DNA of 19,029 nt, taken from NCBI GenBank assembly GCA_945888535.1, contig CAMDAN010000042.1, positions 1 to 19,029 on the forward strand. The letters are read 5' to 3'. Origin of the DNA: Bordetella parapertussis. Its GTDB lineage: Bacteria > Pseudomonadota > Gammaproteobacteria > Burkholderiales > Burkholderiaceae_C. Below, piece by piece: positions 1-19,029 of the stretch. A program made the translations under genes and the position numbers. The notes under the pieces were generated by a model, which saw only the letters and a list, made by a program, of their open reading frames with translations, did not search any database and was not told where the DNA came from. Position 1 is the stretch's first letter. Every line of letters begins with the position of its first letter.

Positions 1-2348
1 ACATCCGTACAGACCTTTTGTACGACGGCGCGGCTCTTGGGGCCAACAACTGCGAAGGTAGACCATTGCTCGGTTACTGAGGTCATATAGACCTTCATCT
101 CAGGCCACTCGGTTTGCACCCAACGCTCCATCCAATTGAGAACGCGGGCGGCGCCACCGGAGGTGGTCGTCATTAAAAATCGTTCTTGGCCTAGGCGCAC
201 GGTAACGCCGTCGTCAAAGACCATGCCGTTTTCGTCGAGCATGAGGCCGTAGCGTGCTTTGCCAACTTCCAGTTTCAACCAAGGGTTGGTGTACATCCAG
301 TTGAGCAACTTGGCCGCATCGGGGCCTTGAATATCAATCTTGCCCAAGGTCGAGGCATCCATGATGCCCACGCCGTTGCGCACTGCCAGCACTTCGCGGT
401 GAAGCGCTTGGTGCATGTCTTCTTTGCCTTTGGGGAAAAACCAAGGGCGTTTCCATTGGCCAACATCCTCAAACAAAGCGCCAGCCGCGACGTGCAATAA
501 ATGCGGGCTGGTTTTACGAGCGGGATCAAAAAGTTCACCGCGCTCCAAGCCTGCAAAAGTTCCAAAGCTGATAGGGACGTAGTTGGGCCGGAAGGTGGTG
601 GTGCCCACCTTGTCAATGGGTTTACCCAAAGCGCGGGCGGCCAAGGCCATGCCGTTGATATTGCCTAACTTGCCTTGGTCGGTTCCAAAGCCCATGGCGG
701 TGTAGCGCTTGATGTGTTCGATGGATTCGAAACCTTCGCGCACCGCCAACTCAATGTCACTGGCGCCAACGTCATTTTGGTAATCAATAAAAGCTTTGGC
801 GCGGCGCGAAACCGGAACGCCTGTCTCAGCAATCCAAAACGCAGCGATCGGTTCTTGGACTGGTTCTTGAACGGTGAACGATTGCGCCGCGGCTGAAAAG
901 CCCGCGTGTTTCGCGGCTTGGGCGCCGGCGCTGCTGGCCTCGGATAAGGCTTGCGCCAAAGTCCATGTGGCTTTTGCTGAACCCACGCTGCTCTGGTTTG
1001 GCATCGCCACACCCGGCTGAAAACAGCACTGCGCCTCATTCCATTGGGCCTTGCCACCGGAATGGGAATAAAGGTGAATCGCAGGATTCCAACCGCCAGC
1101 CATTCCCAAGGCATCACAAGCCAACACGCGTTGATTGCCAGTGGCTTTGTCACCCACCATTTGACACACCGTGACGTCGCGAACTCCGACACTCCCGCTG
1201 GCATGCAAAGGCACGAAGCCGCGCAACACCTCAACGCCAGCGTCACGGGCTTTTTGCAACAAACTACCGGTAGGTATATCTGCGTTTCGGGTGTCAACCA
1301 CCGTGACCTGAGCACCGGCTGCTTTCAATGTCAGCGCATCGGCGTAGGCGCTGTCGTTGTTGGTGAGCAGCACGATGTTTTTCCCAACCAATACACCATA
1401 CAACTGCAAATAATCAGCCATCGCCGAAGAAAGCATCACGCCGGGTAAATCGTTGTTTCCAAACACCATGGGGCGCTCGTGCGCACCGGTGGCCAAGATC
1501 ACTTGGTGCGCCCGCACGCGCCACATCCGCTCGCGAAACCCTTTGCGTTCGTTTAAAGGCAGGTGGTCCGTCAGGGACTCGCGCACGGTTAAAAAATTGT
1601 GGTCGTGGTAACCAAACACGACGCCGCGTTGGATGATTCGTACTTCAGGCATTGCCGCAAGCTCTGCCTGCGCCGCTCGCACCCAAGCTGATGCGCTTAA
1701 ACCGTCAATCGTTCCATGGACCCGGTGGGCTGAGCCACCCAGATGCGCGCTCAGCTCAGCCACGATAACTCGGGCACCAGTGCGCGCTGCCGAAAGGGCC
1801 GCAGCCAAACCGGCAATGCCGCCACCGGCCACAAACACGTCGCAGTGCACGTTTTGCTGCACGTAGCTGGCCGTGTCTTCGACTTCAGGCGCAGATCCTA
1901 AGCCCCCGGCTTTGCGAATAAAGCGCTCGTAAAACATCCAAGCCTTGGCAGGCCACATGAATGTTTTGTAATAAAAACCTGCGGGGAACATCGGCGTGCC
2001 CCAGCGGTTGACACTGAACAATCGGCTTAGCGCATTGGGCCAGCCGTTAACGCTTTCTCCTTGCAGCGCCTCGTACAACTCCACCTCAGGCATCTTGGCG
2101 TTGGGGATGGTGTTGGCGCCACTTTCTAATTGCACCAAGGCCGAAGGCTCCTCAATGCCGGAGGTGACGATGCCACGCGGACGGTGGTATTTCCATGAGC
2201 GAGAAAAGAGGCTCTCGCCTGAGGCTAACAAGGCCGAAGCCAAGGTGTCACCCGCAAAACCTTGGTAGTTTCGGCCATTGAATTGGAAGCGAATGATTTT
2301 CGCGCGGTCAATGCGCTCGCCCTTAGCGGGAATACGGTTGCCGCTCAC
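1..2348 (-). CDS. soxA: Sarcosine oxidase alpha subunit, 3' end cut by window edge
   Basis: This is the alpha subunit of cytoplasmic heterotetrameric sarcosine oxidase, which oxidises sarcosine to glycine with tetrahydrofolate as methyl acceptor. The frame is open from 2348 to the left edge, about 782 codons of a protein usually near 1000. The N-terminus has the family signature around residues 30-57 (DTLASALL, then SWKYHRPRG). A dinucleotide-binding GGGIAG lies at residues 175-180, and a second Rossmann-like stretch lies near residue 280. The C-terminal aminomethyltransferase (GCV_T-like, folate-binding) domain starts near residue 600 and includes GKIDIQGPDAAKLL near 669. The rest of that domain is outside the window. 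The start is GTG, overlapping the soxD stop as GTGA, with an AGGAGG ribosome site 6 bases upstream. soxG would be expected just beyond the left edge. I saw no in-frame stop; identity is very secure, NAD binding is inferred from the family. Confidence 0.95.
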   Translation of the reverse strand, partial: MSGNRIPAKGERIDRAKIIRFQFNGRNYQGFAGDTLASALLASGESLFSRSWKYHRPRGIVTSGIEEPSALVQLESGANTIPNAKMPEVELYEALQGESVNGWPNALSRLFSVNRWGTPMFPAGFYYKTFMWPAKAWMFYERFIRKAGGLGSAPEVEDTASYVQQNVHCDVFVAGGGIAGLAAALSAARTGARVIVAELSAHLGGSAHRVHGTIDGLSASAWVRAAQAELAAMPEVRIIQRGVVFGYHDHNFLTVRESLTDHLPLNERKGFRERMWRVRAHQVILATGAHERPMVFGNNDLPGVMLSSAMADYLQLYGVLVGKNIVLLTNNDSAYADALTLKAAGAQVTVVDTRNADIPTGSLLQKARDAGVEVLRGFVPLHASGSVGVRDVTVCQMVGDKATGNQRVLACDALGMAGGWNPAIHLYSHSGGKAQWNEAQCCFQPGVAMPNQSSVGSAKATWTLAQALSEASSAGAQAAKHAGFSAAAQSFTVQEPVQEPIAAFWIAETGVPVSRRAKAFIDYQNDVGASDIELAVREGFESIEHIKRYTAMGFGTDQGKLGNINGMALAARALGKPIDKVGTTTFRPNYVPISFGTFAGLERGELFDPARKTSPHLLHVAAGALFEDVGQWKRPWFFPKGKEDMHQALHREVLAVRNGVGIMDASTLGKIDIQGPDAAKLLNWMYTNPWLKLEVGKARYGLMLDENGMVFDDGVTVRLGQERFLMTTTSGGAARVLNWMERWVQTEWPEMKVYMTSVTEQWSTFAVVGPKSRAVVQKVCTD

Positions 2349-2641
2349 TGCACACCTCCTAAAGCTGCCACCGACTCCGGGTCTTCCCCGGGCTTGTAAA
2401 ACTTGGTAAATGCGTACGACACGGTGTGGCGCTCTGCGTTAAACCAACGCCGGCAACCGGACGCGTGAAACCACTGTTCGCGGTGCAAGCCTTTGGGGTT
2501 TTTGCGCATGAACAAATAGTCTCCCCACTGGGCGTCGCTCAGTGCATCGGTATCAAGGGGACGCGCGATATGGGCTTCGCCGCCGCAACTGAATTCACTT
2601 TCAGCGCGGGGACCACACCAAGGGCAGGTAATTTTTAGCAT
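2345..2641 (-). CDS. soxD: Sarcosine oxidase delta subunit
   Basis: This is the small zinc-binding delta subunit (98 residues, normal for the family) that helps hold the alpha and beta subunits of sarcosine oxidase together. The four residues known to bind zinc in characterised delta subunits are all at the expected places: Cys6 and Cys9 in the N-terminal CPWC, and His59 and Cys63 in HASGC. An additional Cys19 is present. The start is ATG at 2641, 23 bases after the soxB stop, with only a weak purine-rich ribosome site (GAAGAG). Its last codons carry the AGGAGG ribosome site of soxA, and its TGA overlaps the soxA GTG, which suggests translational coupling. The family is essentially never found apart from soxB and soxA. 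Confidence 0.96.
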   Translation of the reverse strand: MLKITCPWCGPRAESEFSCGGEAHIARPLDTDALSDAQWGDYLFMRKNPKGLHREQWFHASGCRRWFNAERHTVSYAFTKFYKPGEDPESVAALGGVQ

Positions 2642-2664
2642 GGGTGCTCTTCAAGTCCAGGGGG

Positions 2665-3915
2665 TTAGTGCGCAACGCCAGCGGCGCCGTGCTCGTCGAT
2701 CAAATGACCCGACGTAAAACGATTCAAGTCAAACGCCGCGTTCAAAGCGTGCGGACGGTCTTGGGCAATGGTGTGGGCCATGACCCAGCCAGATCCTGGA
2801 GTGGCCTTGAAGCCGCCCGTGCCCCAACCGCAATTGAAGTACAAGCCTTTGATGTGCGTTTTAGAAATAATAGGACACGCATCGGGCGCGACATCCACAA
2901 TGCCACCCCATTGGCGGTTCATGCGGACCCGGCGGAAGATAGGGAACAGTTCGCAAATGGCTTGCAAAGTATGCTCAATAACAGGGAAGCTTCCGCGCTG
3001 ACCGTAACCCACGTAAGAGTCAATGCCAGCACCAATCACCAAATCACCTTTGTCAGACTGACTTGCATAGGCGTGAATGGCGTTTGACATCACTACGGTA
3101 TGAAGAATAGGTTTCATGGGCTCGGAGACCAAGGCTTGTAGCGGATGGCTTTCAAGCGGTAAGCGAATACCCGCCATGTCAGCGATCACCGAGCTGTGTC
3201 CTGCTGCAACCACGCCAATTTTGGAGCTCTTGATCGTTCCGCGGGTGGTCTCAATCCCAACGACTTGGTCGCCCTCACGTTGAATACCAATGACTTCGCA
3301 GTTTTGGATGATGTCCACACCCAAGCGGTCAGCCGCACGGGCAAATCCCCAGGCAATCGCGTCATGCCGCGCCACGCCTGCACGGGGCTGAAATGAAGCC
3401 CCCATCACTGGGTAGCGCAAACTCGAGGAAGTATTCATGATAGGCACCATGGCCTTGATTTCTTCGGGGCTAAGCACCACGCCGTCTACGCCATTCAAGC
3501 GGTTGGCGTTGACGCGGCGGTTGATATCGCGCATGTCTTGGTGCGAGTGGCCGACATTCATCACACCGCGCTGGCTGAACATGGTGTTGTAGTTCAGGTC
3601 TTGCGAAAGCCCTTCCCACAACTGCAACGCTTTTTCATACAAGTGGGTTGCATCGTCCCAAAGGTAATTTGAGCGAACGATGGTCGTATTACGGGCGGTA
3701 TTTCCGCCGCCCAACCAGCCCCGCTCGACCACCGCAATATTGCGCATGCCGTGCTCTTTGGCCAAATAGTAAGCGGTTGCCAAACCGTGGCCGCCGCCGC
3801 CGACGATGATGGCGTCGTAATGGCTCTTGGGCTCAGGGCTGCGCCACTGTTTTTGCCAATTTTCGTGGTACGACATGGCATTGCGCGCAAGCGCAAAGAC
3901 TGAAAAATGACTCAC
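2665..3915 (-). CDS. soxB: Sarcosine oxidase beta subunit
   Basis: This is the catalytic flavoprotein subunit (416 residues, usual length) of heterotetrameric sarcosine oxidase. It oxidises the N-methyl C-N bond of sarcosine; the methylene group is passed to tetrahydrofolate in the alpha subunit and electrons reach O2 to give H2O2. The N-terminus is family-typical ([16 protein letters not shown], then WRSPEPK), which supports the start at 3915. The FAD-binding GGGGHG is at residues 39-44, followed by an acidic residue at the end of the second strand ([11 protein letters not shown]). His184 in ARHDA aligns with the histidine that carries covalent FMN in characterised enzymes. Only 18 bases separate it from the upstream sdaA, and soxD and soxA follow, so it sits inside a folD-sdaA-soxBDA operon. 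No defects seen. Confidence 0.97.
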
Positions 3916-3933: not shown

Positions 3934-5337
3934 TCAACATTCGATCACGTTCACGGCCAACCCGCCGCGGCTCGTTTCTTTGTATTTTGTCATCATGTCA
4001 CGACCGGTGTCGCGCATGGTTTTAATGACTTGGTCTAGCGATACGAAATGGGTGCCATCCCCACGCAAGGCCATGCGCGCAGCATTCAGTGCCTTCACGG
4101 AGCCCATGGCATTGCGTTCGATACAAGGGATTTGTACCCGCCCGCCCACGGGATCACAGGTCAGTCCGAGGTTGTGTTCCATGCCGATTTCAGCCGCATT
4201 TTCAACTTGCCTAGCGCTTCCGCCCATGACGGCAGCCAAACCACCAGCCGCCATCGAACAAGCAACGCCCACCTCACCTTGGCAGCCCACCTCGGCGCCA
4301 CTGATAGAGGCATTTTCTTTGTAAAGCAGCCCTATCGCACCCGCCGTTAAAAGGAAATTGCGGATGCCTTCTTGGTTGGCACCGGCGCAGAACCGGTCGT
4401 AGTAATGCATCACCGCTGGAACGATTCCTGCAGCGCCATTGGTTGGCGCAGTAACCACGCGACCGCCTGCGGCGTTTTCTTCATTAACCGCCATGGCATA
4501 CACATTCAGAAAATCCAAAATGGTGAGTTGGTCTTTCAGTGATTGCTCCGGACGGCTGCTTAGTGAACGGTGTAACTCAGCAGCGCGGCGCTTGACCATT
4601 AAATTGCCTGGCAAGTGGCCTTCGGTTCTACAACCCCGTTCCACACAGGCCTTCATGGCGTCCCAAATGCTGTCCAGCCCGGCGTTCACTTCAGCATCGC
4701 TGCGCCACGCGAGCTCATTTGCTCGCATGATCTCTGCAATCGACAAACCCGTGGCCTCGGTAATAGCGAGTAGCTCATCACCGCTATGAAAGGGGAAACG
4801 AACCTGGGTGGGATCAGGAACCATGACTGGGACGCTGCCAGTGGCGGCGCTTTGTGCATCTGCAACTTCTTGCGAAACCACAAACCCACCACCCACAGAG
4901 AAATAGCGACGCTCTTGGATCAAGGCGCCGTCTGCGGCAAAGGCCATGAACTTCACGCCATTGGGGTGGTAAGACAAGGTCTCCCGACGCAGGAAAAGCA
5001 CGTCTGTTTTTTCGCTGAACGCAATCGACTTGCTGGCGTTGAGTTGTAAAGTTTTACTCGTTCGGATGACTTTGAGGCTAGCGTCAATGGTGTCAGGATC
5101 AATCGTGTCAGGCATCAAACCTTGTAAGCCCAACATCACGGCCGTATCGGTTCCGTGGCCTTTGCCGGTTGCGCCTAAAGAGCCGTACAGGCGCACTTCG
5201 ACTCGCTCTGTTTCTGCGATTTGGCCATCTGCTTGGAGCGCGCGGGCAAACATGGCCGCTGCCTTCATGGGGCCGACGGTATGAGAGGAAGAGGGGCCAA
5301 TCCCAATTTTAAAAAGGTCAAAAACGCTGAGTGACAT
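3934..5337 (-). CDS. sdaA: L-serine ammonia-lyase, iron-sulfur type
   Basis: This enzyme deaminates L-serine to pyruvate and ammonia in the cytoplasm using a [4Fe-4S] cluster. It is the single-chain form (467 residues), with the N-terminal domain starting near [12 protein letters not shown] (12-23) and the catalytic domain in the second half. Cys352, Cys394 and Cys405 have the same spacing (42 and 11) as the cluster ligands known from the Legionella enzyme. The protein ends exactly in cysteine (Cys467), matching the C-terminal cysteine that enters the active site in that enzyme, so the frame is complete. It lies 91 bases after folD and 18 bases before soxB. In this setting it probably drains glycine derived from sarcosine, after conversion to serine by a glyA product not seen here, into pyruvate. 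Confidence 0.96.
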
Positions 5338-5428: not shown

Positions 5429-6322
5429 TTACGACGTGCCTGGATGCTTGAGCGACACGTCGTTTCCCCGCGCGGCGGCATGGCGTTGGGCGGACTGTAC
5501 CGTGTTATAGACCAACATCGTCACCGTCATCGGGCCCACACCCCCTGGGACAGGCGTAATGTAAGAGGCTTTTTGTCGAACGCCTTCAAAGTCTACGTCG
5601 CCTACCAATCTGCCATCGGGCAGGCGATTGATTCCCACGTCAATCACCACAGCGCCCGTGCGCACCATCTGGGGAAGAATGAGGTTGGGACGGCCCGCCG
5701 CCACGACCAAAATATCCGCAAGAATGGTGAACTGCGCGAGGTCCCGGGTTTTGGCATGGCAAATACAGACGGTTGCGTCCTTTTGCATCAACATCAATGC
5801 CATGGGCTTGCCGACAATATTGCTCGCGCCAACGACAACCACGTTTTGGCCTTCCACGGGTATGTTCTCGTACTCCAGCATTTTCTGGACGCCATAAGGC
5901 GTGCACGGTGGGAAAACGGTATCTCCCAAGACCAAGGCTCCGACGTTGTAAAGGTGAAATCCATCGACATCTTTGTCGCTCGAAATTTTTCCTAAAACCC
6001 GACGCGCATCAAAATGCGACGGAAGAGGCAGCTGCACCAAAATACCGTGGACCGAGGGGTCTAAATTCAGGCGTTCAATTTCAGCCTCAACGACGGTATC
6101 GGGCGTGTTGGCGTCAAACGCATAGACTTTGGATTGCAAACCCACCTCAGTACAGGCTTTGATTTTGTTAGCGACATACACCTTGGAGGCAGGGTTGTCT
6201 CCCACAATAATGACTGCCAAACCGGGTTGAACGCCTTGCTCTTTTAACGCATCCGACAGTTCCCGACACTCTTGCCTGACTTTGCGTGAAACGGCGTGAC
6301 CGTCGATAATTTTTGCAACCAT
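5429..6322 (-). CDS. folD: Methylene-tetrahydrofolate dehydrogenase/cyclohydrolase
   Basis: FolD is a cytoplasmic bifunctional enzyme: it oxidises 5,10-methylene-tetrahydrofolate with NADP and hydrolyses the methenyl product to 10-formyl-tetrahydrofolate. With the start at 6322 the protein has 297 residues, close to the usual 280-300, beginning MVAKIIDGHAVS. The catalytic YVANK (Tyr49, Lys53), DKDVDGFH (near 117-123), the NADP-binding GASNIVGKP (165-173) and the C-terminal PGGVGPMT (259-266) are all visible. An in-frame ATG at 6424 would add 34 residues unlike the family, so I reject it. It begins the operon folD-sdaA-soxBDA, where sarcosine oxidase generates methylene-tetrahydrofolate, so a C1-recycling role is likely. 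It may be a second, pathway-dedicated copy, but this cannot be judged from the window. Confidence 0.95.
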   Translation of the reverse strand: MVAKIIDGHAVSRKVRQECRELSDALKEQGVQPGLAVIIVGDNPASKVYVANKIKACTEVGLQSKVYAFDANTPDTVVEAEIERLNLDPSVHGILVQLPLPSHFDARRVLGKISSDKDVDGFHLYNVGALVLGDTVFPPCTPYGVQKMLEYENIPVEGQNVVVVGASNIVGKPMALMLMQKDATVCICHAKTRDLAQFTILADILVVAAGRPNLILPQMVRTGAVVIDVGINRLPDGRLVGDVDFEGVRQKASYITPVPGGVGPMTVTMLVYNTVQSAQRHAAARGNDVSLKHPGTS

Positions 6323-6442
6323 GGTTAAATCCCTTTGGGCTTCTGCCTCATGGGGCTGCATGCTATGCGTCAAAGCCTCCGTTTTCACCCTGCCAAACGA
6401 CTGAGATAAACCTGTTTGCGACATGGTGGCTTTTGTTCAACT

Positions 6443-6504
6443 TGCACCTGAAGGTATGGCGTTTGCAGGAAAGTCGGCGTCGCAAAAGTACCATGGCAGG
6501 TGCA
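6443..6504. repeat. 8-bp perfect inverted repeat in the folD/mttB divergent region
   Basis: TGCACCTG at 6443-6450 is repeated inverted as CAGGTGCA at 6497-6504, with 46 bases between the arms. The next few inward bases also share an ATGG-like stretch. The pair lies in the 249-base spacer between the divergent genes folD and the mttB homologue. It could be a pair of half-sites for a regulator that bridges both promoters; an 8-base match in a short spacer may also be chance. Confidence 0.3.
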
Positions 6505-6509
6505 TGGCC
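6494..6509 (+). promoter_or_regulatory. Possible sigma-54 (-24/-12) promoter for the mttB homologue
   Basis: TGGCAGG, four bases, then TGGC fits the sigma-54 pattern TGGCACG-N4-TTGC with two mismatches. It keeps the essential GG (6495-6496) and GC (6507-6508) at exactly the required 12-base register. Transcription would start near 6520 and leave a leader of about 50 bases before the ATG at 6572. No sigma-54 activator gene lies in the window. The match is by eye only, and the same stretch contains one arm of the inverted repeat. Confidence 0.25.
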
Positions 6510-6510
6510 T

Positions 6511-6534
6511 TGCCGATACTCACGAATCACGGCA
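6511..6534. repeat. Short dyad upstream of the mttB homologue
   Basis: TGCCG at 6511-6515 and CGGCA at 6530-6534 form a 5-base dyad with a 14-base spacer, 38 to 61 bases before the mttB start. The size suits a dimeric regulator site placed near the transcription start, but the arms are short and chance cannot be excluded. Confidence 0.18.
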
Positions 6535-6571
6535 GCATGTTCTGCATCAAAACGGCGTATGGAGTTAAAAA

Positions 6572-8167
6572 ATGACCACTGACACAAGCATTCTAGAAGC
6601 GCAAGACACAACCACAGCACCGCGCAACCGGCGCACCTCTGGCAGTCGAGAAGCCAAGCGCGCGGCACGCGCGGCACGCACCGGTCAATCAGTTCCCTAC
6701 ATCACGCGCAAGATTCCCTACTACGAAGTGCTTGACGAAGAAGGCTTGCAAATCATCGAGCGCAATGCCGAAATCATTTTGGAAGAAGTCGGAATTGAAT
6801 TTCGTGATGACGCCGAGGCGCTCGATATTTGGCGCAAAGCGGGCGCCGATATCAAAGGCGAGCGCGTTCGCTTTCCGCGCGGCATGTGCCGCAGCATTGT
6901 GCAAGCCAGCGCCCCGCGTGAATTCATTCAGCACGCGCGCAACCCCGCGAACAATGTCGTGATTGGTGGGAAGAACACGGTTTTTGCGCCTGCGTACGGA
7001 TCGCCTTTTGTGCGTGACCTTGACAAAGGCCGCCGTTACGCCACGATTGAAGACTTTCAGAACTTCGTCAAACTGGCATACACCGCCACCTCCTTGCACC
7101 ACTCTGGCGGAACCATTTGCGAGCCGGTCGATTTGCCGGTCAACAAGCGCCACTTCGACATGGTTTACGCCCACATGAAGTACAGCGACAAACCTTTCAT
7201 GGGCTCGGTCACCCACCCCGAGCGGGCACACGATACGGTTGAGATGGCGCGCGCTTTGTTTGGCGACAACTTCAATGACCCCTTGACTGGTAAACCTAAA
7301 ACGGTCTGTATCAGTCTGATCAATGCCAACTCCCCCATGACCTTTGATGACACCATGCTCGGTGCGGCCAAAGTCTATGCCCGTGCGAACCAAGCTACGA
7401 TCATCACCCCCTTTATCTTGGCTGGTGCTATGTCGCCAGTAACCGTCGCTGGGACCTGTGCCCAAACTCTGGCCGAAGCCTTGGCTGGAATGGCTTTTGT
7501 TCAGTTGGTGAATCCGGGGGCACCTGTCGTCTTGGGCAGTTTTGCTTCTTCGATCTCAATGCAATCGGGTGCGCCAACTTTTGGCACACCAGAGCCTGCC
7601 TTGGTTTTGTATGTGATGGCGGCTTTGGCTCGACGCTTGGGCGTTCCGTTTCGCTCCGGTGGCAGTTTGTGCGGCTCCAAAATAGCCGATGCCCAAGCCG
7701 CTTCTGAATCAGCCAACACTTTGATTCCCACCAGTTTAGGTGGTGTGAATTTTGTATTGCACACCGCCGGCTGGCTGGAAGGCGGCCTCTCGATGGGCTA
7801 CGAAAAGTTCATCATGGACGCCGACCAAGCCGGAATGATGCATACCTTGTTAGGCGGCGTCGATGTCACAGAAAACGGACAAGCCATGGATGCGATTCGC
7901 GAAGTCGGTCCGGGCAAACACTTTTTAGGTTGCGCCCATACCCAGGCCAACTTCGAGAGCGCTTTTTACCGCTCACCGATTACGGATAACAACAGTTTTG
8001 AGCAGTGGGAAGCCGAAGGCTCTGTGGATCTATCCGTGCGCGCCAATGCGATGTGGAAAAAACAATTGGCCGAATACGAAGCCCCGGCCTTGGATGTCGC
8101 TGCCGATGAAGCTGTTTTGGATTACATGAACCGCCGCAAAGCTTCATTTCCTGACTCCAACATCTAA
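6572..8167 (+). CDS. MttB-superfamily quaternary-amine methyltransferase, non-pyrrolysine type
   Basis: This 531-residue protein belongs to the trimethylamine methyltransferase (MttB) superfamily, whose members transfer a methyl group from a methylated amine to a cobalt-corrinoid carrier protein. True MttB needs pyrrolysine encoded by an in-frame TAG; this frame has none and ends in TAA, so it is the non-pyrrolysine type. Characterised members of that group (MtgB, MtcB, MtpB) use glycine betaine, carnitine or proline betaine. The N-terminus has an Arg-rich stretch (residues 19-36) common in proteobacterial homologues. The barrel follows from about residue 60, with the characteristic GVPFRSGGSLCGSKIADAQA near 357-376. 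The ribosome site GGAG is 7 bases before the ATG. Its divergent neighbour is the sarcosine/folate operon and the carnitine genes lie downstream, so glycine betaine is my first guess and carnitine or butyrobetaine the second. No corrinoid protein gene is in the window. Confidence 0.92.
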   Translation: MTTDTSILEAQDTTTAPRNRRTSGSREAKRAARAARTGQSVPYITRKIPYYEVLDEEGLQIIERNAEIILEEVGIEFRDDAEALDIWRKAGADIKGERVRFPRGMCRSIVQASAPREFIQHARNPANNVVIGGKNTVFAPAYGSPFVRDLDKGRRYATIEDFQNFVKLAYTATSLHHSGGTICEPVDLPVNKRHFDMVYAHMKYSDKPFMGSVTHPERAHDTVEMARALFGDNFNDPLTGKPKTVCISLINANSPMTFDDTMLGAAKVYARANQATIITPFILAGAMSPVTVAGTCAQTLAEALAGMAFVQLVNPGAPVVLGSFASSISMQSGAPTFGTPEPALVLYVMAALARRLGVPFRSGGSLCGSKIADAQAASESANTLIPTSLGGVNFVLHTAGWLEGGLSMGYEKFIMDADQAGMMHTLLGGVDVTENGQAMDAIREVGPGKHFLGCAHTQANFESAFYRSPITDNNSFEQWEAEGSVDLSVRANAMWKKQLAEYEAPALDVAADEAVLDYMNRRKASFPDSNI

Positions 8168-8191
8168 ACCATCCTTGGCTTCAGCCCCATC

Positions 8192-8219: not shown

Positions 8220-8222
8220 TGT

Positions 8223-10688: not shown

Positions 10689-10704
10689 GCGATTGTCCTA
10701 TTAC

Positions 10705-11808: not shown

Positions 11809-13383
11809 TTATGCAAACCAACCCTTCTCAGCGATACGTTGGTCGCCCAAGTCGTAACGGCCAGAGATGGTCAAACCACGCAGGTTTTTGCTTGCACCGT
11901 CCAAGTAATCTTGAACCGCGAAGCACACCATACCGGATTCTTGGTTGAGCATGGACTGGCACTTGGCATACATTTCTGCACGCTTCTTTTGGTCGAGTTC
12001 CACACGCGCAGCGACCAAAATCTTGTTGAATTCAGCGCTGGTGTAGTGGGTGTCGTTCCAAGGGTTGGTGGTTCCATTGGCAAAAGTCGATGTGAACTGG
12101 TTGTCAATGGTAGGACGGTTGCCCCAGTAAACCGCGCAGAACGGCACTTTCAACCAGACGTTGTCCCAGTAGCCGTCGCCAGATACGCGCTTCAAGTCCA
12201 TCTTGATACCGGCTTTTGCCAAGGATTCTTGGAAAATTTGGCCAGAATCGGTAGCGCCAGTGAACGCACCTTCAGAGACTTGCAACTCGATAGGAGAAGT
12301 CACACCGGATTTTTTGAAGTGGAACTTGGCCTTGTCTGGATCGTACGTAGTCATCTTTTGCTTTGCATCGTAGTACTTCATCTTCGGTCCTGCGGTGTGG
12401 TCATTGCCCACGGACGCATAGCCAGAGAATACGTTCTCAACGATCTTCTTACGGTCAATACCGTACTTCAGAGACAACATCAGGTCCTTGTTCGCAAAGG
12501 GCTCTTTGTCGGTATGGGCCACAAACGCAAAACGGTTACCAGCACCAGGGGTACGAGAGACAACCAAGTTTTTGTTTTTAGCAACCAACGCAGCGGTTTT
12601 AGGATCGAGGCGGTTGACCGCATCCACTTGACCTGTCACCAAAGCTTGGGTACGGGCAGCGGAGTCACCGATGTAACGCAATTCAACACGGTCAAAATTA
12701 CCGCGGTTAGGCTTCCAGTAGTCGCCCGCTTTGCGTTTGAAGGTTGCACGAACGCCAGGCTGGAACTCGTCCAGTGTGAAGGCGCCGGTGCCGTCAGGCT
12801 TGCTGAAGTCGGTGTAACCGTTAGGAACCACGATGATGTGGTAATCGCTGAGGTTGTAGGGCAGGTCAACGTTGCCGTTTTTCATCAAGATCTGCACTTG
12901 GTTGGCAGAAATTTTCTTGATTTCGGTAATGTCGGCCAACAACGCTTTCGCAGGTGATTTTGTCTCACCGCGGTGCATATTGAGGGAGTAGATCACGTCA
13001 TCCGCATCAAGCGTTTTGCCAGAGGTGAAGGTGATACCTTTGCGGACTGTAAACGTCCAGTCAGCCGCGCCGGGCTTGACTTCCCACTTTTCAAACAACT
13101 CACCGGCTGCGCTACCGTCATCAGCAACTTCAACCAAGTTGTTCCAAAGCATCAAGCTCATTGCAATGGGAATGGAGTCAGCGTAGGTGCGAGGATCCAA
13201 ACTATCGGAGGGTGAGCCACCTTCCATACCGAGGCGCAAGGTGCCGCCTTTTTTTGGCTTTTCAGCAGCCATAGCTGAAGATGCGCCTAATGTTCCAGCC
13301 AAACCAACGGCAGAAGCGCCGAGGATCAGTTGACGACGATCGAGAATGATGCCCGACTCAGTGGTTTGTTCGACATTTTCCAT
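11809..13383 (-). CDS. Periplasmic substrate-binding protein (family 5), Tat-exported
   Basis: This 524-residue protein is the periplasmic binding protein of the Dpp/Opp-type importer encoded just downstream. It begins with a twin-arginine signal: DRRQLIL around Arg16-Arg17, a hydrophobic stretch, then a likely signal peptidase site after SSAMAA near residue 40. The mature part opens KGGTLRLGMEGGSPSDSLDP, the classic start of solute-binding family 5. It continues with WTFTVRKGITFTSGK, ADDVIYSLNMHR and a C-terminal region rich in Trp and Tyr. Tat export suggests folding before export. The family binds peptides but also opines, nickel and other small molecules, so 'dipeptide' should not be assumed; context points to a betaine-like ligand. 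It lies 238 bases after the regulator gene, and the spacer holds its probable promoter. Confidence 0.93.
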   Translation of the reverse strand: MENVEQTTESGIILDRRQLILGASAVGLAGTLGASSAMAAEKPKKGGTLRLGMEGGSPSDSLDPRTYADSIPIAMSLMLWNNLVEVADDGSAAGELFEKWEVKPGAADWTFTVRKGITFTSGKTLDADDVIYSLNMHRGETKSPAKALLADITEIKKISANQVQILMKNGNVDLPYNLSDYHIIVVPNGYTDFSKPDGTGAFTLDEFQPGVRATFKRKAGDYWKPNRGNFDRVELRYIGDSAARTQALVTGQVDAVNRLDPKTAALVAKNKNLVVSRTPGAGNRFAFVAHTDKEPFANKDLMLSLKYGIDRKKIVENVFSGYASVGNDHTAGPKMKYYDAKQKMTTYDPDKAKFHFKKSGVTSPIELQVSEGAFTGATDSGQIFQESLAKAGIKMDLKRVSGDGYWDNVWLKVPFCAVYWGNRPTIDNQFTSTFANGTTNPWNDTHYTSAEFNKILVAARVELDQKKRAEMYAKCQSMLNQESGMVCFAVQDYLDGASKNLRGLTISGRYDLGDQRIAEKGWFA

Positions 13384-13593: not shown

Positions 13594-13621
13594 TACACCT
13601 CCTTTTTTTCATCCAAGTCGC

Positions 13622-14605
13622 CTATCGAATCGTATGCGTCGCAAACGTACTGACCCCTTTTGCAATTCGGTCTTCGGTCGGACTGACGCCAAAACGCAGC
13701 TTGTAGGCGCGCGAAAAATGGGATGATGCACCAAAACCGCACGCCAAGCCCACCGCCATGACCCCCATCTCCGTTTGTTTTAGCAATTGACGTGCCCGAT
13801 CCAGCCGCAACACCAAATAAAACTGCGCAGGCGAGGTTCCCAAATGGCTTTGGAATAAGCGTTCCATTTGGCGGCGCGTGACGCCCATGCCAGAAGCCAA
13901 ATCTTGCGCAGAAAGCAGGTCTTCCAAATGGGTCTCCATGGCTTTGATGACTTGCACTAGTTTTTTATTGTGTACGCCGTAGCGGGCGGTCAATTGGGTG
14001 CGCTGGTGTTCGGATTGGCTACGCATCGGGCCATGGACAAATTGCTCCGAAACTGTGGCTGCCAACTTAAGACCGTGGGCCTTGCCAATGAGCGCCAGCA
14101 TCATGTCAATCGCGGCCGTTCCACCCGCACAGCTCATGCGCCTCTCGCCCCACTCGTAGAGTTCATCTGTGACTTTTATTTTGGGATAACGCTCTTGGAA
14201 CGCCAACTGCGCCTCCCAATGCAAAGTCACCGTGTGGCCTTGTAAAAGACGCGCTTGCGCCAACAAAAAAGCGCCCGTGTCCAACGCGCCTAACGTTGCG
14301 CCACTGCGATCCCATTGCCGCAAGCAGTCCCCCATCTCCCGGTGGTAATACTGCAAGGGGTTGAATCCGGCAACCACAAACAAGGTCTGAATCCCAGTCG
14401 CTTCCCGCAAGGCGCCATCGACATTCAAAGACATGCCATTACTGGCCTGGACGGCTAGCCCGTCCCAGCTCAGAATTTTCCATTGGTAGGCGTCTTTTTG
14501 AAAGCGATTGGCCACGCGAAGCGGTTCGAGCGCGGAGACAAAACCCATCATGGAAAACTCGGGCAACAAGAGGAAGTGAAACTCTCGGGCCGCGCTCACT
14601 TCCAT
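13622..14605 (-). CDS. GbdR/CdhR-like AraC-family regulator with DJ-1/PfpI-type sensor domain
   Basis: This is a transcription regulator of 327 residues. The N-terminal DJ-1/PfpI (class I amidotransferase-like) domain spans about residues 9-175 and opens FLLLPEFSMMGFVSALEPLR, close to GbdR and its relatives, which sense glycine betaine, dimethylglycine or carnitine in Pseudomonas. The turn that holds the catalytic cysteine in true family enzymes reads GALDTGAF here, so the domain is probably a sensor only. A C-terminal AraC double helix-turn-helix lies at about 215-313 (QDLASGMGVTRRQMERLFQ, then VGLACGFGASSHFSRAYK). I chose the ATG at 14605; the longer frame from 14647 would start with TTG inside the caiD gene. 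It lies 26 bases after caiD, ahead of the importer operon, and likely controls one or both. A small GC-rich hairpin spans the caiD stop. Confidence 0.9.
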   Translation of the reverse strand: MEVSAAREFHFLLLPEFSMMGFVSALEPLRVANRFQKDAYQWKILSWDGLAVQASNGMSLNVDGALREATGIQTLFVVAGFNPLQYYHREMGDCLRQWDRSGATLGALDTGAFLLAQARLLQGHTVTLHWEAQLAFQERYPKIKVTDELYEWGERRMSCAGGTAAIDMMLALIGKAHGLKLAATVSEQFVHGPMRSQSEHQRTQLTARYGVHNKKLVQVIKAMETHLEDLLSAQDLASGMGVTRRQMERLFQSHLGTSPAQFYLVLRLDRARQLLKQTEMGVMAVGLACGFGASSHFSRAYKLRFGVSPTEDRIAKGVSTFATHTIR

Positions 14606-14631
14606 GGACTGAATCCGGCTTCGAAACGCGC

Positions 14632-15414
14632 TCAGCGCGCTTGCCAACGCGGTGGGCGTTTTTCTGAAAATGCACGGGGTCCCTCGGCCGCATCGTCTGA
14701 ACGCAGCATGGCGCGGTAGTGCGGCAGATCCGCTTTTCGCAGAGTGGTGTAAGCCGCTGCGATGGTTTGCCCTTCGGTGGCGTTGATCAGCTCTTTAACC
14801 GCTGCCAAAGCCAAAGGTGCTGCCAAAACCATCTCTTGCGCCAAAGCTTGGGCAGTTTCTAACAACGCGTCCGGGGCCACAACCCGATTGACCAGCCCCC
14901 AACGCGCCGCTTCCAACGCGCCCATGCGACTGCCGGTTAACAGCATTTCTAAGGCAATCGCCCGAGGTAAGCGCCGGGGCAGACGCAACACCCCGCCTGA
15001 ATCTGCCACCATGCCGAGCTTGACTTCGGGAAGCGCAAATTCTGCGGTGTCGCTTGCCACGATCAGGTCTGCGGCCAAGGCAAGTTCAAAGCCTCCGCCC
15101 ATGGCCAAACCGTTCACTGCTGCAATCACCGGTTTTTGAAGGCTGAAAAACTCGGTGAGGCCGGCAAATCCGCCCGGCCCGTGGTCTGCGTCAATGGCCT
15201 CGCCTTGCGTGGCGCCGGCTAAATCCCACCCGGCAGAAAAAAACCGCCCAGTACCCGTCAAAATCCCCACACGCAGCGCAGGATCGTCATTCAATTGTTT
15301 AAAAGCCTGGTACAAGGCTTGGCTTGTCGGCACGTTGATCGCATTGGCTTTGGGTCGGTCTAAGGTGATCGTTAAAACACCATTGAACACACTGGTTTTG
15401 ACTGCTTCAGTCAT
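14632..15414 (-). CDS. caiD: Carnitinyl-CoA dehydratase-like crotonase
   Basis: This crotonase-family enzyme (260 residues) resembles E. coli CaiD, which hydrates crotonobetainyl-CoA to carnitinyl-CoA, along its whole length rather than only in general motifs. Shared features include DRPKANAI (19-26), FSAGWDL (59-65), the insertion [10 protein letters not shown] (79-88), [19 protein letters not shown] (101-119), [16 protein letters not shown] and the ending [10 protein letters not shown]. Glu110 and Glu130 match the two catalytic glutamates of crotonases. The ATG overlaps the end of the CoA-ligase gene by 8 bases and has GGAG 7 bases upstream, so the two are translationally coupled. Together with the ligase, dehydrogenase and thioesterase it fits carnitine, crotonobetaine or gamma-butyrobetaine catabolism. 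The comparison is from memory; a generic enoyl-CoA hydratase is the less likely alternative. Confidence 0.87.
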
Positions 15415-17485
15415 TTAACGCTCCTTGGATGCGAATTAAAGCATCGACTGCCAAAACGCCGTGGCCTTGGGCCATCACCAGCACCGGATTGACATCCAAC
15501 TCCAGCAATTGGTGGGCATGGCGCTGCGCAAAATTTGCCACTGCCATGACTGCATCGATCAGCGCTTCCACATCGCCTGGGGGGCGGCCTCGAAATCCCA
15601 CCAACAAAGGCCACATTTTCAAAGCCATCAAGGCATCACGCACATTATTTCTCTGGACCGGGAAAAGCAAAGTCACTGCATCTTGCAAAATTTCGACCAA
15701 TACGCCGCCGGCTCCCACCGTTAAAGACAGTCCAAACTGCGGGTCGCGCTGAACGCCAACAATGACTTCAGCGACCACGCCTTTGGCCATTTGTTCCACC
15801 AAAAACCGCTCCGATAGCCCGGTCATCTTTTCCAGAGCCGCACGCAATTGCGCTTCGTTTTTCAAATGCAAGTGCACCGCGCCCGCTTCTGTTTTATGCG
15901 CCAATTGGTCAGAAACCGCTTTCAGTACTACGGGGTAACCCAAGGTATTGGCGTAGGCACACACGTCGTTGGCAGCAAGCACTGCGCCTTTGGGCGTAGG
16001 CAGACCGAACGCAGCCAATGCGCGTTTGCTGGCGGCTTCATCGAGTAACACTTCTGGCCCTTGAACCAAATTTTGAACCACGGGCAAGGCCAGGGTTTGG
16101 TCAAGCCGTTTTTTTGCAGCGCCTATCGCCGCTGCATTAGCAATCGCATCTAAACAGTCAGGCAGGCCGTGCATAGGCGCAATGTTTTGGTGCATCAATG
16201 CACTGGCAAAGTGCTCCGGTAAATCTTCTGGCAAGGACGCCACCACCGTCGCACCTTTGCCTCCGGATTGCGCTGCTGCAACAAAGGCGTCCACCGTGGT
16301 GCCCCAACTCTGCGCGCTACACCGGTCTAGGCGCGGGTAATCCAATACCAAAAGATGGGCGTCAAACTGGCAGTCCATGAGCCCCGTAAAACATTCGGTC
16401 TGTGCTGCCAAGTCGCCCCAAATATAGGTGTGGTAGTCCAAGGGGTTGGCCACGCTGACCTTCTCACCCAACACCTTGCGCAGCCTATTCGCTGCTGCGT
16501 CAGGAATGGGTGGCATCTGCAGCCCGCGCGGCTGCGCCAAGTCGGCGACCAGGGAGGCCTCGCCACCCGAACAGCTGGCCGAGATCAAGCGCTTACCAGG
16601 CAAAGGGCCGTGGACATGAAGAAACTTACACGTCTCTATCAAACCCGCAGGGTCTTTGACCCGCGCTACGCCACAGCGCGCAAAGAGCGCGTCATACAAA
16701 GCGTCTGGTCCGGCCAAAGAGCTGGTGTGGCTCATCGCGGTTTGCGCACCTAAGGCCGAGGAGCCAGCCTTGAGCGCCACCAATGGAACGCCTTGTCGCA
16801 AAGCTTTTAAAGCGACTTTGGAAAACGCAGCGACATCATCCAAGCCTTCAATATGCATGCCAATCACGCTCACACGGGGATCGCTAAGCAGGGCGTCGAC
16901 CATGCTTTCTATGCTGTCGCCGCCTTTGTTACCTACCGTAATCAAATACGCCAAGGGCATCGCACGGCGCTGCATGGTGAGGTTCAAACCAATATTGCCA
17001 CTTTGGGTAATTAAGGCTACGCCCCGGCTGATGCGTTCGCCGCCATGTTGGTCCGGCCACAGGGCGAAACCATCAAGGTAATTCAGCATGCCGTAGCAGT
17101 TGGGGCCGACCAAGGCCATGGCCCCAGCGTTTTTTACTAATTGCTGTTGCAGCTCTAAACCCACGCCGCCCACCTCAGCAAACCCCGACGCGTAACAAAT
17201 CGCCCCGCCCGCACCTCGCTTGGCCAACGCGCCAACAATCTCCACGGTGGCTTCACGTGGCACGGCGATAAAGCTTGCGTCAGGCGCCGCAGGCAAAGAG
17301 GCCACATCCGCAAAACAAGGCAAGCCTTCGATGCTTTCTTTTCGCGGATGAACAGGCCAAATCTCTCCGGCAAAGCCGAGCTTTCGGCATTGTCGAATCG
17401 CCTCTGCGGCGGCGTTCCCGCCGAACACGGCAATATGACGAGGAGAAAAAAGCCGGCGTAGCGCTGCGGTCCGATCACCGCCCAT
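15407..17485 (-). CDS. ADP-forming acyl-CoA ligase, fused alpha-beta type
   Basis: This cytoplasmic enzyme (692 residues from this start) belongs to the nucleoside-diphosphate-forming acetate-CoA ligase family, which makes acyl-CoA from acid, CoA and ATP through a phosphohistidine. It opens with a CoA-binding Rossmann domain ([17 protein letters not shown]), followed by succinyl-CoA-ligase-like domains with TQSGNIGLN. His253 in SHTSSLAG is the probable phosphorylated residue. The C-terminal ATP-grasp domain (from about 475) has [30 protein letters not shown] and [11 protein letters not shown] chose the ATG at 17485, five bases after the dehydrogenase stop; an in-frame TTG at 17494 would add three residues. 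It overlaps caiD by 8 bases. In the E. coli cai system this activation step is done by CaiC or CaiB, so this probably replaces them for carnitine, crotonobetaine or butyrobetaine. The acid used is inferred. Confidence 0.9.
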
Positions 17486-17490
17486 CGCGC

Positions 17491-18663
17491 TCAACCGCCA
17501 TGCTCACGCAGCATGGCGCGAGAAATAATGTGGCGCTGAATTTCGCTGGTGCCATCCCAAATACGCTCAACCCGAGCATCGCGCCAAAACCGCTCAATCG
17601 GCAGCTGGTTCATCAAACCCATGCCACCAAAAATTTGCAAACTTTGGTCCGTGACCCGCGCCAATGTCTCCGTCGCAAACAATTTGGCCATGGCAGCGTC
17701 AGAATCGGTCATGGTGCCTTGGTCACACTTCCAAGCCGCTTGAAGCGTTAAGAGCTCCGCGGCTTCCAACTCGGTTGCCATATCGGCGAGCTTGAAACCT
17801 GTGCCTTGAAACTTGCCAACGGATTGACCAAATTGTTTTCGGGTCGCGGCCCACTGGGTCGCCATGTCCATCACGCGCCTGCCTCGGCCCACGCTGGTTG
17901 CGGCCACCGTGAGGCGGGTGGCGCCCAGCCATTCGCCCATCAAATCAAAACCTTTGCCCTCTTCTCCCAAACGCTTGTAGGCGGGCACACGGCAGTCGGT
18001 AAAAAACAATTCGCATTGGTGGTACCCCCGGTGGGAGACACAGGCCGGGCCCCGCCGCACCGTTAGGCCTGGGGAGTTCAAATCAACCAAGAAACCCGTG
18101 ATTTTTTTCTTCGGGCCATGTTTGGTTTCCTCAGTCCCCGTGGCGGCAAACAAAATCACAAAATCACTCATATCAGCGTGGCTAATGAAGTGCTTGGTGC
18201 CGTTGATGATGTAGTCCGCATCCTCGCCCGCACCTTCACGTACTGCTTTGGTTTGCATGCCGCGCACATCAGAACCCGCATTGGGTTCGGTCATGGCCAA
18301 GCAATCGTGGCGCTCCCCTCGAATCGTGGGCAATAAATATTCTTCAATCTGCTTGCCTTCGCAAGCCCGCAAAATATTGCTCGGACGCGCAACCACCATC
18401 TGCAAGCCATACGAGGCTCGGCCCAATTCCCGTTCCATCAACGTGATGCTGAAGTTATCTAAGCCCCCACCGCCCAACTCGGCGGGCATGTTCGCCGCAT
18501 ACAACCCCACCTCAATGGCTTTGGCTTGAATGGATTTCACCAACGCCGGGGGCACCGCATCCAGCCGCTCGACTTCATCTTCATGCGGGTACAACTCGTT
18601 TTCTACAAACGCGCGTACCGTATCCACAATCATTTTTTGTTCTGTGTTGAGTTCAAATTGCAT
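17491..18663 (-). CDS. Acyl-CoA dehydrogenase, probably for a betainyl-type acyl-CoA
   Basis: This is an FAD-dependent acyl-CoA dehydrogenase (390 residues, normal length) that introduces a 2,3 double bond into an acyl-CoA. Visible family landmarks are AMTEPNAGSDVRGMQTKA (123-140), NGTKHFISHAD (154-164), ATRKQFGQSVGKFQ (273-286), the FAD-binding QIFGGMGL (343-350) and RFWRDARVERIWDGTSEIQR (358-377). Position 370, where most family members carry the catalytic glutamate (EGTS), is Asp. The IVD-type alternative glutamate position, near 249, reads Thr. The neighbours are an ADP-forming CoA ligase and a CaiD-like hydratase, so oxidation of gamma-butyrobetainyl-CoA to crotonobetainyl-CoA is the best guess; reduction in the CaiA direction is the alternative. 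The start at 18663 follows the thioesterase stop by 33 bases with a weak ribosome site (GAGA). Confidence 0.92.
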   Translation of the reverse strand: MQFELNTEQKMIVDTVRAFVENELYPHEDEVERLDAVPPALVKSIQAKAIEVGLYAANMPAELGGGGLDNFSITLMERELGRASYGLQMVVARPSNILRACEGKQIEEYLLPTIRGERHDCLAMTEPNAGSDVRGMQTKAVREGAGEDADYIINGTKHFISHADMSDFVILFAATGTEETKHGPKKKITGFLVDLNSPGLTVRRGPACVSHRGYHQCELFFTDCRVPAYKRLGEEGKGFDLMGEWLGATRLTVAATSVGRGRRVMDMATQWAATRKQFGQSVGKFQGTGFKLADMATELEAAELLTLQAAWKCDQGTMTDSDAAMAKLFATETLARVTDQSLQIFGGMGLMNQLPIERFWRDARVERIWDGTSEIQRHIISRAMLREHGG

Positions 18664-18696
18664 GTTTAGGTCTCAATGATTCAGGGGGTTAAGTTT

Positions 18697-19029
18697 TCAA
18701 AGCGCTTTACGACGAATTCCCATGGGCTTTCCCAGGTTCTTAGGCGCGGCTAATAGGGCATGCACTTTGGCAATCGCATTCAAACGGTCTTGCAAATAGC
18801 CAGGCATATCCGCTGAGCGTCCTTGAGCCATGTCCACGTGCACCAGCATTTGTTCAGCGGTAGCCAACACATCACCCGTTGCAGCATGGGTCATGGTGTG
18901 AAATATATGCACCCGCTTTTCGTCATGGTCGATTAATTGCAAATCTAAACGCAGCGGCTCCCCTTGGGCAACATCTTTCACGTGGGGGATATGGGTTTCA
19001 ACGGTGTAGTGCGAATGACCGCCTTGGTC
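18697..19029 (-). CDS. Betainyl-CoA thioesterase-like hotdog protein (CdhB type), 5' end cut by window edge
   Basis: The frame is open from the right edge to 18697 and gives the last 110 residues of a protein normally about 150 long. It belongs to the hotdog-fold thioesterase group (4HBT_2 type). Recognisable parts are the beta-strand region TVETHIPHVKDVAQGEPLRL, then LIDHDEKRVHIFHTM and LATAEQMLVHVDM. This strongly recalls CdhB of pseudomonad carnitine operons, which hydrolyses betainyl-CoA to glycine betaine and CoA after cleavage of 3-dehydrocarnitine. The N-terminal part with the active-site Asp expected in WxDxNGH is outside the window. The internal GTG at 18981 is not the start. It is the first in-window gene of the operon with the dehydrogenase, ligase and caiD. 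If the reading is right, carnitine dehydrogenase and a 3-keto-acid cleavage enzyme should lie just beyond the edge. Confidence 0.82.
   Translation of the reverse strand, partial: DQGGHSHYTVETHIPHVKDVAQGEPLRLDLQLIDHDEKRVHIFHTMTHAATGDVLATAEQMLVHVDMAQGRSADMPGYLQDRLNAIAKVHALLAAPKNLGKPMGIRRKAL

Follow-up and report, generated by a model that had tools for sequence, protein, structure and literature searches.

Two catabolic modules for quaternary amines, one for gamma-butyrobetaine and carnitine and one for glycine betaine, lie next to each other in a stretch of 19,029 nucleotides (assembly GCA_945888535.1, contig CAMDAN010000042.1; the window). In our reading they join into one route from gamma-butyrobetaine to pyruvate, in which a protein of the MttB superfamily would act as MtgB, the glycine betaine:corrinoid methyltransferase. 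We put the probability of this reading at about 0.75. It is the best explanation of gene content, linkage, co-occurrence and conserved residues, from which every substrate and reaction named below is deduced. The window has 15 main open reading frames, each with a family match above the Pfam cut-off, and these family assignments are far beyond chance. All families named in an initial annotation of the stretch are present according to Pfam and NCBIfam, and the single convergent route that it had proposed, from gamma-butyrobetaine or crotonobetaine through carnitine, glycine betaine, sarcosine, glycine and serine to pyruvate, is supported once genes of relatives are added.

In the proposed route, the upper operon would convert gamma-butyrobetaine to gamma-butyrobetainyl-CoA, oxidise it to crotonobetainyl-CoA, hydrate this to carnitinyl-CoA and release free L-carnitine. 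L-Carnitine would then pass through dehydrocarnitine and betainyl-CoA to glycine betaine, with the participation of a second thioesterase, CdhA and BKACE, whose genes precede the upper operon in relatives. As MtgB, the MttB protein would take one methyl group from glycine betaine and place it on the cobalamin of MtgC. MtgD and MetF2, whose genes lie elsewhere, would pass this group to tetrahydrofolate (H4F) and oxidise it to methylene-H4F, which FolD would take over by oxidation. The demethylation of dimethylglycine would fall to an enzyme that the window does not encode, SoxBDAG would produce glycine from sarcosine, GlyA would combine glycine with methylene-H4F to give serine, and SdaA would convert serine to pyruvate.

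The MttB protein matches PF06253 over its full length (residues 23-527, E = 6.1e-233) and is an uninterrupted frame of 531 amino acids with no in-frame amber codon, i.e. a non-pyrrolysine member. Among solved structures, the protein (METHYLTRANSFERASE) scores 776 bits with 4yyc, which we take to be a protein of Sinorhizobium meliloti, 432 bits with 2qne, and 431 bits with 9yce, which is named glycine betaine methyltransferase. The pyrrolysine-containing trimethylamine methyltransferase MttB was considered as an identity and rejected (TIGR02369, 261 bits against a cut-off of 525; no pyrrolysine codon). Docking on 2QNE has proposed Y94, N199, R309 and H345 of Desulfitobacterium hafniense MtgB as glycine betaine contacts, and F353 as an aromatic contact (PMC6855144). 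With the numbering carried over by hand via the 2qne alignment, the first four correspond to Y142, N251, R361 and H397 of the window protein, i.e. four of the five proposed contacts are kept, and these residues are identical in six sampled orthologues. The contact Tyr is lost in three paralogues of 42% identity and in those of 37% and 35%, one of which also loses the Asn, and all four residues are lost in three paralogues of 27%. Judged from its sequence, the window protein is most likely MtgB. The characterised enzymes of the MttB family depend on three partners, namely a corrinoid protein, a second methyltransferase and a reactivase; the window genes include none of these, and all are present in relatives. 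The earlier suggestion that an MttB homologue demethylates the betaine in place of an oxygenase is supported, with the qualification that its partner proteins would be encoded outside the window.

Relatives, in which genes were called with a codon model, show where such partners are encoded. Of at least 558 confirmed stretches, the best 80 were taken as the named mttB loci; 38 have 85-99% mttB identity (L149-L186, the close loci) and 42 have 76-82% (L187-L228). Flank counts are restricted to loci with enough sequence on the relevant side, as stated with each count. A gene for mtgC, mtgD or the corrinoid reactivase RACo lies in the flanks of 27 of the 42 loci at 76-82% (25 of 37 when only those with 6 kb or more are counted), including those of Pseudomonas aestuarii, Halomonas lysinitropha and the betaproteobacterium Azoarcus sp. 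Aa7. A 57-kb contig of genome G016 carries soxGADB, sdaA, glyA, folD and mttB, then a BHMT-like mtgE, betA, betB and the gene of a choline-binding protein, and continues with RACo, a pterin-binding mtgD, metF2, DUF5981, Virulence_fact, DUF1638, mtgC and purU. The product of this mtgC scores 209.5 bits with the NCBIfam model of the glycine-betaine corrinoid protein MtgC, below its cut-off of 370.

Genomes G001-G037 belong to one genus by their kinship labels, and 19 of them are mttB-positive, counting any MTTB match; 17 of the 19 have a match of at least 78% identity (some partial), and in G012 and G037 all matches are partial or of the paralogue type. Co-occurrence counts across these genomes are not independent, because of common ancestry, and many of the genomes are incomplete. 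The cdhA gene at an identity of at least 78% is found in 17 of the 19 mttB-positive genomes (two partial; not G016 and G020) and in none of the 18 mttB-negative ones. Of 25 genus genomes, 14 mttB-positive and 11 mttB-negative, DUF1638 (E < 1e-20) is found in all 14 against none of the 11, RACo in 13 against none, and a stand-alone B12-binding protein (E < 1e-12) in 12 against one. The B12-binding match of G009 has an E value of 6.1e-13, with weaker ones in G013, G014 and G024, and weak DUF1638 matches occur in the mttB-negative G009 and G013 (3.9e-8 and 9.9e-7). Because mttB-negative genomes also have stand-alone B12-binding matches, DUF1638 was used as the marker. It was found in all six named-locus genomes searched, including Rhodoferax lacus and those of L193, L195 and L218, whose mttB flanks are without an mtg gene. 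In the Rhodoferax lacus genome behind L175 (G062) the marker lies at C20:38724-39191; this contig may be NODE_20 of L175, which would place DUF1638 about 15 kb from mttB.

These flanks also bear on the possibility that the MttB protein, as an enzyme of the MtyB/MtcB type, demethylates gamma-butyrobetaine or carnitine directly, so that parallel routes act on the same compound. Genes for caiD, the ligase, the dehydrogenase, the thioesterase, cdhA and BKACE are absent from all 42 flanks at 76-82%, 27 of which have mtgC, mtgD or RACo, and 10 of the 16 close loci with reach are without the full upper set beside mttB. The MtgBCDE cluster of S. meliloti, the presumed source of 4yyc, has moreover been assigned to glycine betaine (PMC12478193). 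We consider direct demethylation unlikely for the window protein, although its gene and those for gamma-butyrobetaine are about 6.5 kb apart, MttB-superfamily members acting on gamma-butyrobetaine or carnitine exist in Eubacterium (PMC8604678; PMC12478193), and the four docking residues do not separate all paralogues.

The sequences nearest to the window are contigs labelled Comamonadaceae, Burkholderiales or Sulfuritalea and genomes G001, G018 and G028, with 90-94% DNA identity over most long stretches and 98.7% in one short stretch. The window organism would thus belong to the Rhodoferax/Comamonadaceae group, probably as a species separate from these relatives. A freshwater origin is likely from strain and isolate names, no record giving a habitat. 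Contig 128 of G028 corresponds to window positions 4179-14390 (92.2% DNA identity) and its contig 213 to positions 14250-19029 (90.5%). The latter continues past the right end with the whole thioesterase gene, a zinc alcohol dehydrogenase (ADH)-like gene, thioesterase 2, cdhA, BKACE, aldolase II and a major facilitator superfamily gene. This order is also found in genomes G036, G005 and G003 (loci L032, L035 and L047, the last of which ends inside the aldolase-II gene), with gene identities read on G036; the cdhA homologue of L032 is above the L-carnitine dehydrogenase cut-off (618 against 414). To the left of the window, relatives have a full soxA, soxG and then a HyuA-like gene, and glyA is present in G016, G033, G015 and G007; it is found in 10 of the 38 closest loci. 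The search beyond the window that had been suggested yielded cdhA, BKACE, soxG and glyA in relatives, and no enzyme for dimethylglycine demethylation was recognised in the window or among the identified flanking genes. In all five genomes considered (G036, G029, G033, G028 and G005), a protein of about 800 residues similar to dimethylglycine dehydrogenase (DMGDH) lies with another soxB/D/A-like set and an MttB paralogue of 42%. This grouping is seen at L056-L060, where the paralogue has 42-44% identity and the additional soxB/D/A-like set is divergent.

The sox/sdaA/mttB half is stable among relatives, and the gamma-butyrobetaine half adjoins it only in particular lineages. Among close loci, sdaA and soxB are each found in 21 of the 24 with at least 3.5 kb on the left, and soxB+D+A in 16, soxG in 15 and the HyuA-like gene in 13 of the 18 with at least 9.5 kb. 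On the right, the ATPase gene follows mttB in 20 of the 34 close loci with at least 1 kb, and of the 16 that extend for 9.5 kb or more, only six have the complete caiD-ligase-dehydrogenase set beside mttB and three others have the ABC genes without caiD. With the caiD set in six of 16, we read the window as two modules joined, not as an obligate unit. The juxtaposition, which the initial annotation had presented as one island, holds for the window and those six loci, and is not general. It could also be that two unrelated islands, one for gamma-butyrobetaine/carnitine and one for glycine betaine, are neighbours without common regulation, as the 10 of 16 loci with non-adjacent halves, the separate predicted transcription units and the three loci with a transporter and no adjoining caiD would suggest. 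Such an arrangement seems improbable to us: the product of the upper module with CdhA and BKACE is the substrate of the lower module, the distribution of cdhA orthologues follows mttB in the genus (17 of 19 against 0 of 18), and the regulator is of the GbdR/CdhR type.

The enzymes of the upper operon fit a CoA-dependent route from gamma-butyrobetaine, as far as their sequences indicate. The thioesterase runs off the window; the part present resembles the C-terminal domain in the carnitine 3-dehydrogenase model NF005716 (98.9 bits), and its full-length homologue in L032 has 154 residues; the two thioesterases found in relatives would fit the two CoA esters that need hydrolysis. The best solved relative of the CoA ligase is the 4-hydroxybutyrate-CoA ligase 8wzu (217 bits). 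The ligase also aligns over residues 20-689 with the dimethylsulfoniopropionate lyase 7cm9 (194 bits), whose substrate is, as we assume, a zwitterion resembling that proposed for the ligase. The CaiD-like hydratase keeps E110 and E130 in the alignment to 3r0o, which we take to be both catalytic Glu residues of the crotonase fold, and the DJ-1 and HTH_18 architecture of the regulator is as in the GbdR type. The acyl-CoA dehydrogenase has Asp (IWDGT) at the position where the catalytic-base motif presumably has Glu as its usual residue, and each of the 11 loci with a match has the IWDGT motif, a count in which some loci repeat the same DNA. The dehydrogenase might instead be a lyase like BbuA, an acyl-CoA dehydrogenase homologue (PMC8364193), releasing trimethylamine from gamma-butyrobetainyl-CoA, with the hydratase acting on crotonyl-CoA. 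The Asp would be compatible with this, yet bbu was found only in Clostridiales in that study, and the window genes include no CoA transferase, ferredoxin or BCCT gene. Furthermore, the cdhA and BKACE genes that follow in relatives are not needed for crotonyl-CoA, and the MTTB protein is far from the trimethylamine-enzyme cut-off (261 bits against 525). We regard a BbuA-like lyase as very unlikely and retain a gamma-butyrobetainyl-CoA dehydrogenase as the probable role. Amid and behind the carnitine genes, two further proteins are conserved: a zinc-ADH similar to PIG3 and acryloyl-CoA reductase (L032:12710-13831) and an aldolase-II protein (L032:16222-16965).

Several observations weigh against the proposed route. 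MtgC, MtgD, RACo, CdhA and a dimethylglycine enzyme are seen only in relatives of the window organism, and mtgC, mtgD and RACo are in none of the 29 close loci (mttB identity of at least 85%) with a flank of at least 6 kb. Genome G047, which does not belong to the genus, gave matches for RACo, DUF1638 and stand-alone B12-binding proteins and none for mttB. Both the CaiD-like protein (NF002936, 348 against 500 bits) and the GbdR-like protein (NF052371, 329.5 against 480 bits) are below their NCBIfam equivalog cut-offs, and the Asp of the dehydrogenase belongs here as well. In the MttB protein, F353 of D. hafniense corresponds to Gly405, with Trp401 four residues past the His. All four contact residues are also retained in the three paralogues of 55% that were sampled, so that the contact pattern does not fix the substrate. 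The upper set adjoins mttB in a minority of the close loci, as described above, and cdhA and mttB are on different contigs in several mttB-positive genomes. In Pseudomonas aeruginosa, glycine betaine is demethylated by the GbcAB oxygenase. In favour of the route, the GbcA model (NF058607, cut-off 670) gave no score above the cut-off in any of 61 genomes; it also gave none in the 14 control genomes, which leaves this test without a positive control. Matches of 465-492 bits, below the cut-off, were obtained in G002, G044 and G050, none of them mttB-positive, and the best scores in mttB-positive genomes were 279 (G022) and 276 (G036). The single Rieske gene of many genomes was tried as GbcA and discarded, as eight representatives had no NCBIfam match at 1e-40. 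Finally, the mutants described in PMC12478193 are of mtgC and mtgD, and mtgB is supported there by proteomics and homology.

The mtg genes are probably also connected to methionine synthesis. In the genus, MetH (PF02965) is found in one of the 19 mttB-positive and 17 of the 18 mttB-negative genomes, and a BHMT-like gene of the MtgE type in 18 of 19 against none of 18. The MtgE type was assigned by hand to PF02574 rows spanning profile positions 1-283 (E of about 1e-60 to 1e-64), and the G016 member, the sole one compared with NCBIfam, passes NF005718 (473 against 338). MtgC and MtgD of Ruegeria pomeroyi serve both glycine betaine demethylation and methionine synthesis, as established by proteomics and mutants (PMC12478193, 2025), and in that study MetH is frequently absent and up to seven MttB homologues are present. 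Here, too, MtgC and MtgD probably serve a split methionine synthase together with MtgE. The near-complete replacement of MetH was not found in print, in a literature search that mostly lay outside subscription journals. A full-length MetE was considered as an alternative methionine route and dismissed, since in the genus it is found only in G004, which is mttB-negative; many genomes, mttB-positive and mttB-negative alike, have only shorter MetE-like genes (about 350 residues).

The HyuA-like gene that follows soxG encodes an ASKHA protein of 691 residues (L031:10781-12856, minus strand), and its best solved relative is 5-oxoprolinase, with 93 bits. A paralogue of 43-44% identity adjoins the mtgE-type gene in G007 C293, G033 C4 and G015 C25. 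At an identity of at least 70% (some partial), the HyuA-like protein is found in 17 of the 19 mttB-positive and none of the 18 mttB-negative genus genomes, and at least 55% identity is reached in 9 of 37 more distant mttB loci. The word "hydantoinase" is absent from the main text of PMC12478193. We tentatively suggest that one corrinoid protein serves both quaternary-amine catabolism and the main methionine synthase, and that the HyuA-like proteins accompanying mtgB and mtgE are a hitherto overlooked ATP-dependent component of cobalamin methyl transfer; taken together, this is more doubtful than not. Its scope, which is just as speculative, would probably be freshwater Burkholderiales and would include gamma-butyrobetaine, carnitine, choline and probably proline betaine, via several MttB paralogues. 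In L051:9494-16051 a 55% MttB paralogue is followed by two flavoproteins of the old yellow enzyme type and a pyrroline-2-carboxylate reductase, with two Rieske proteins nearby, and from sequence this set looks like proline-betaine-type catabolism. Paralogues of 26-27% identity lie beside two DMGDH/GcvT-like proteins in L063, L064, L065, L067 and L068, and those sampled from L063 and L068 are without the four betaine-contact residues.

The features of the window are listed in Table 1. Gene spacing predicts four transcription units. The first is the leftward upper operon of thioesterase, acyl-CoA dehydrogenase, CoA ligase, CaiD-like hydratase and regulator (gaps of 33, -4, -8 and -16 bp). The second comprises the genes of an ATP-binding cassette (ABC) importer, i.e. 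the binding protein, two permeases and the fused double ATPase; a hairpin separates the gene of the binding protein from those of the permeases. The third is mttB alone on the plus strand, and folD-sdaA-soxB-soxD-soxA form the fourth, divergent from mttB. A scan for terminator-like hairpins found 39 sites against 28.8 expected in shuffles, and the palindrome after mttB is absent from its list of sites. Promoter-like sites of the sigma-70 type are rarer than in shuffles (3 against 10.3), and no promoter is therefore claimed. No tRNA genes and no Rfam matches at gathering thresholds were found in the window.

Table 1. Features of the window, with positions, strand and supporting matches
Feature	Position	Strand	Evidence
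SoxA, sarcosine oxidase alpha, truncated at the window end	3..2348	-	TIGR01372, 1038 bits (cut-off 1164)
SoxD, sarcosine oxidase delta	2345..2641	-	TIGR01374, 116.9 bits (cut-off 116.5)
SoxB, sarcosine oxidase beta	2665..3915	-	TIGR01373, 701 bits (cut-off 529)
SdaA, L-serine ammonia-lyase	3934..5337	-	TIGR00720, 695 bits (cut-off 345)
FolD, methylene-H4F dehydrogenase/cyclohydrolase	5429..6424	-	NF010786, 430 bits (cut-off 421)
147-bp divergent region, folD/mttB	6425..6571	.	
MttB-superfamily protein, probable MtgB, glycine betaine:corrinoid methyltransferase	6572..8167	+	PF06253
Palindrome resembling a terminator, where the mttB and ATPase genes converge	8168..8222	.	by eye in the sequence
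Fused double ABC ATPase	8223..9839	-	PF00005, two stretches
Two ABC permeases	10705-11652 and 9855-10688 (span 9855..11652)	-	PF00528
16-pair hairpin (9 G-C pairs) with T-containing tail, possible partial terminator	11709..11746	-	
Family-5 ABC solute-binding protein	11809..13383	-	PF00496
GbdR/CdhR-type AraC regulator (DJ-1 + HTH_18), last gene of the upper operon	13622..14647	-	overlaps caiD
CaiD-like crotonobetainyl-CoA hydratase	14632..15414	-	NF002936, 348 bits (cut-off 500)
NDP-forming acyl-CoA ligase, probable gamma-butyrobetaine/crotonobetaine:CoA ligase	15407..17494	-	CoA_binding, Succ_CoA_lig, ATP-grasp_5
Acyl-CoA dehydrogenase, probable gamma-butyrobetainyl-CoA dehydrogenase	17491..18663	-	family match
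4HBT_2 thioesterase, 3' part, probable carnitinyl-CoA (or betainyl-CoA) thioesterase	18697..19029	-	PF13279; C-terminal domain of NF005716

Regarding the lower half, SoxB and SoxD are above their cut-offs in the window and soxG is seen in relatives only. SoxA has 782 residues in the window against about 1000 in relatives, and this truncated part stays below the cut-off of its model. The family match of FolD begins at residue 35, so that the true start is probably internal. The importer has a binding protein of the peptide/opine/nickel family, with AgaA, AapF and YliB as its best solved relatives, all below 95 bits; an importer of this family is presumably unusual for quaternary amines. The initial annotation had proposed an importer dedicated to the route; given the family of the binding protein, the ligand stays unproven. 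ABC genes similar to those at window positions 8223-13383 lie near a 55% MttB paralogue in L053 and L070.

Comparison with known systems indicates that what is new here is the host group and the layout, the chemistry having been described in marine bacteria in 2025. The mtg genes have been reported from marine Alpha-, Gamma- and Deltaproteobacteria, other groups and S. meliloti, often near genes of later demethylation steps (PMC12478193), and the novelty that the initial annotation had seen in an MttB-type betaine demethylation in aerobes therefore does not stand. Shared with the MtgBCD(E) system of R. pomeroyi and S. meliloti are an MTTB-family MtgB, a stand-alone MtgC, a pterin-binding MtgD and MetF2, as well as DUF1638, RamA/RACo, a BHMT-like MtgE and a mostly absent MetH (PMC12478193). 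The difference is that mtgB is here accompanied by sox, sdaA and folD, to which some lineages add a gamma-butyrobetaine/carnitine module. The groups listed in the accessible part of PMC12478193 do not include Betaproteobacteria, and the likeness is one of gene families. Neither the betaproteobacterial case nor the joining to a gamma-butyrobetaine/carnitine module was found in print, in a search that left most subscription journals and the supplements of PMC12478193 outside.

The caiX-cdhCAB-hocS operon of P. aeruginosa with cdhR and gbdR likewise leads from carnitine to glycine betaine, with AraC regulators of the GATR type and genes close together, and differs by another importer and, in its published description, by being without CoA-dependent gamma-butyrobetaine genes (PMC5806209). 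The statement that these parts are scattered in pseudomonads was overstated for gbdR and the carnitine genes, as one clone covers PA5380-PA5389 and gbdR is PA5380 (PMC5806209). D. hafniense MtgB (2QNE; PMC6855144) and 9YCE are, like the window protein, non-pyrrolysine MTTB members, and the four 2QNE contacts are kept; they differ in reaching only about 430 bits, in the anaerobic energy metabolism of D. hafniense and in Phe353, which is Gly here. With the enterobacterial caiTABCDE genes (PMC2131755) and bbu of Clostridiales (PMC8364193) the window shares a CaiD-like hydratase and an acyl-CoA dehydrogenase for gamma-butyrobetainyl-CoA or its product. These systems are anaerobic, reductive or trimethylamine-releasing, with CoA transferases and BCCT carriers (PMC2131755; PMC8364193), in contrast to the window with its NDP (nucleoside diphosphate)-forming ligase, thioesterases and oxidative downstream enzymes.

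The observation is real and coherent, and is largely explained by the discovery of 2025. It extends the cobalamin-dependent glycine betaine route to betaproteobacteria of the Rhodoferax group, including Rhodoferax lacus IMCC26218, and in some lineages ties it to a complete gamma-butyrobetaine/carnitine funnel. If the proposed route is true, the supply of B12 would govern the turnover of osmolytes as well as methionine synthesis in this group, and the marker genes for glycine betaine demethylation there would be mtgB/mtgC, not gbcAB.

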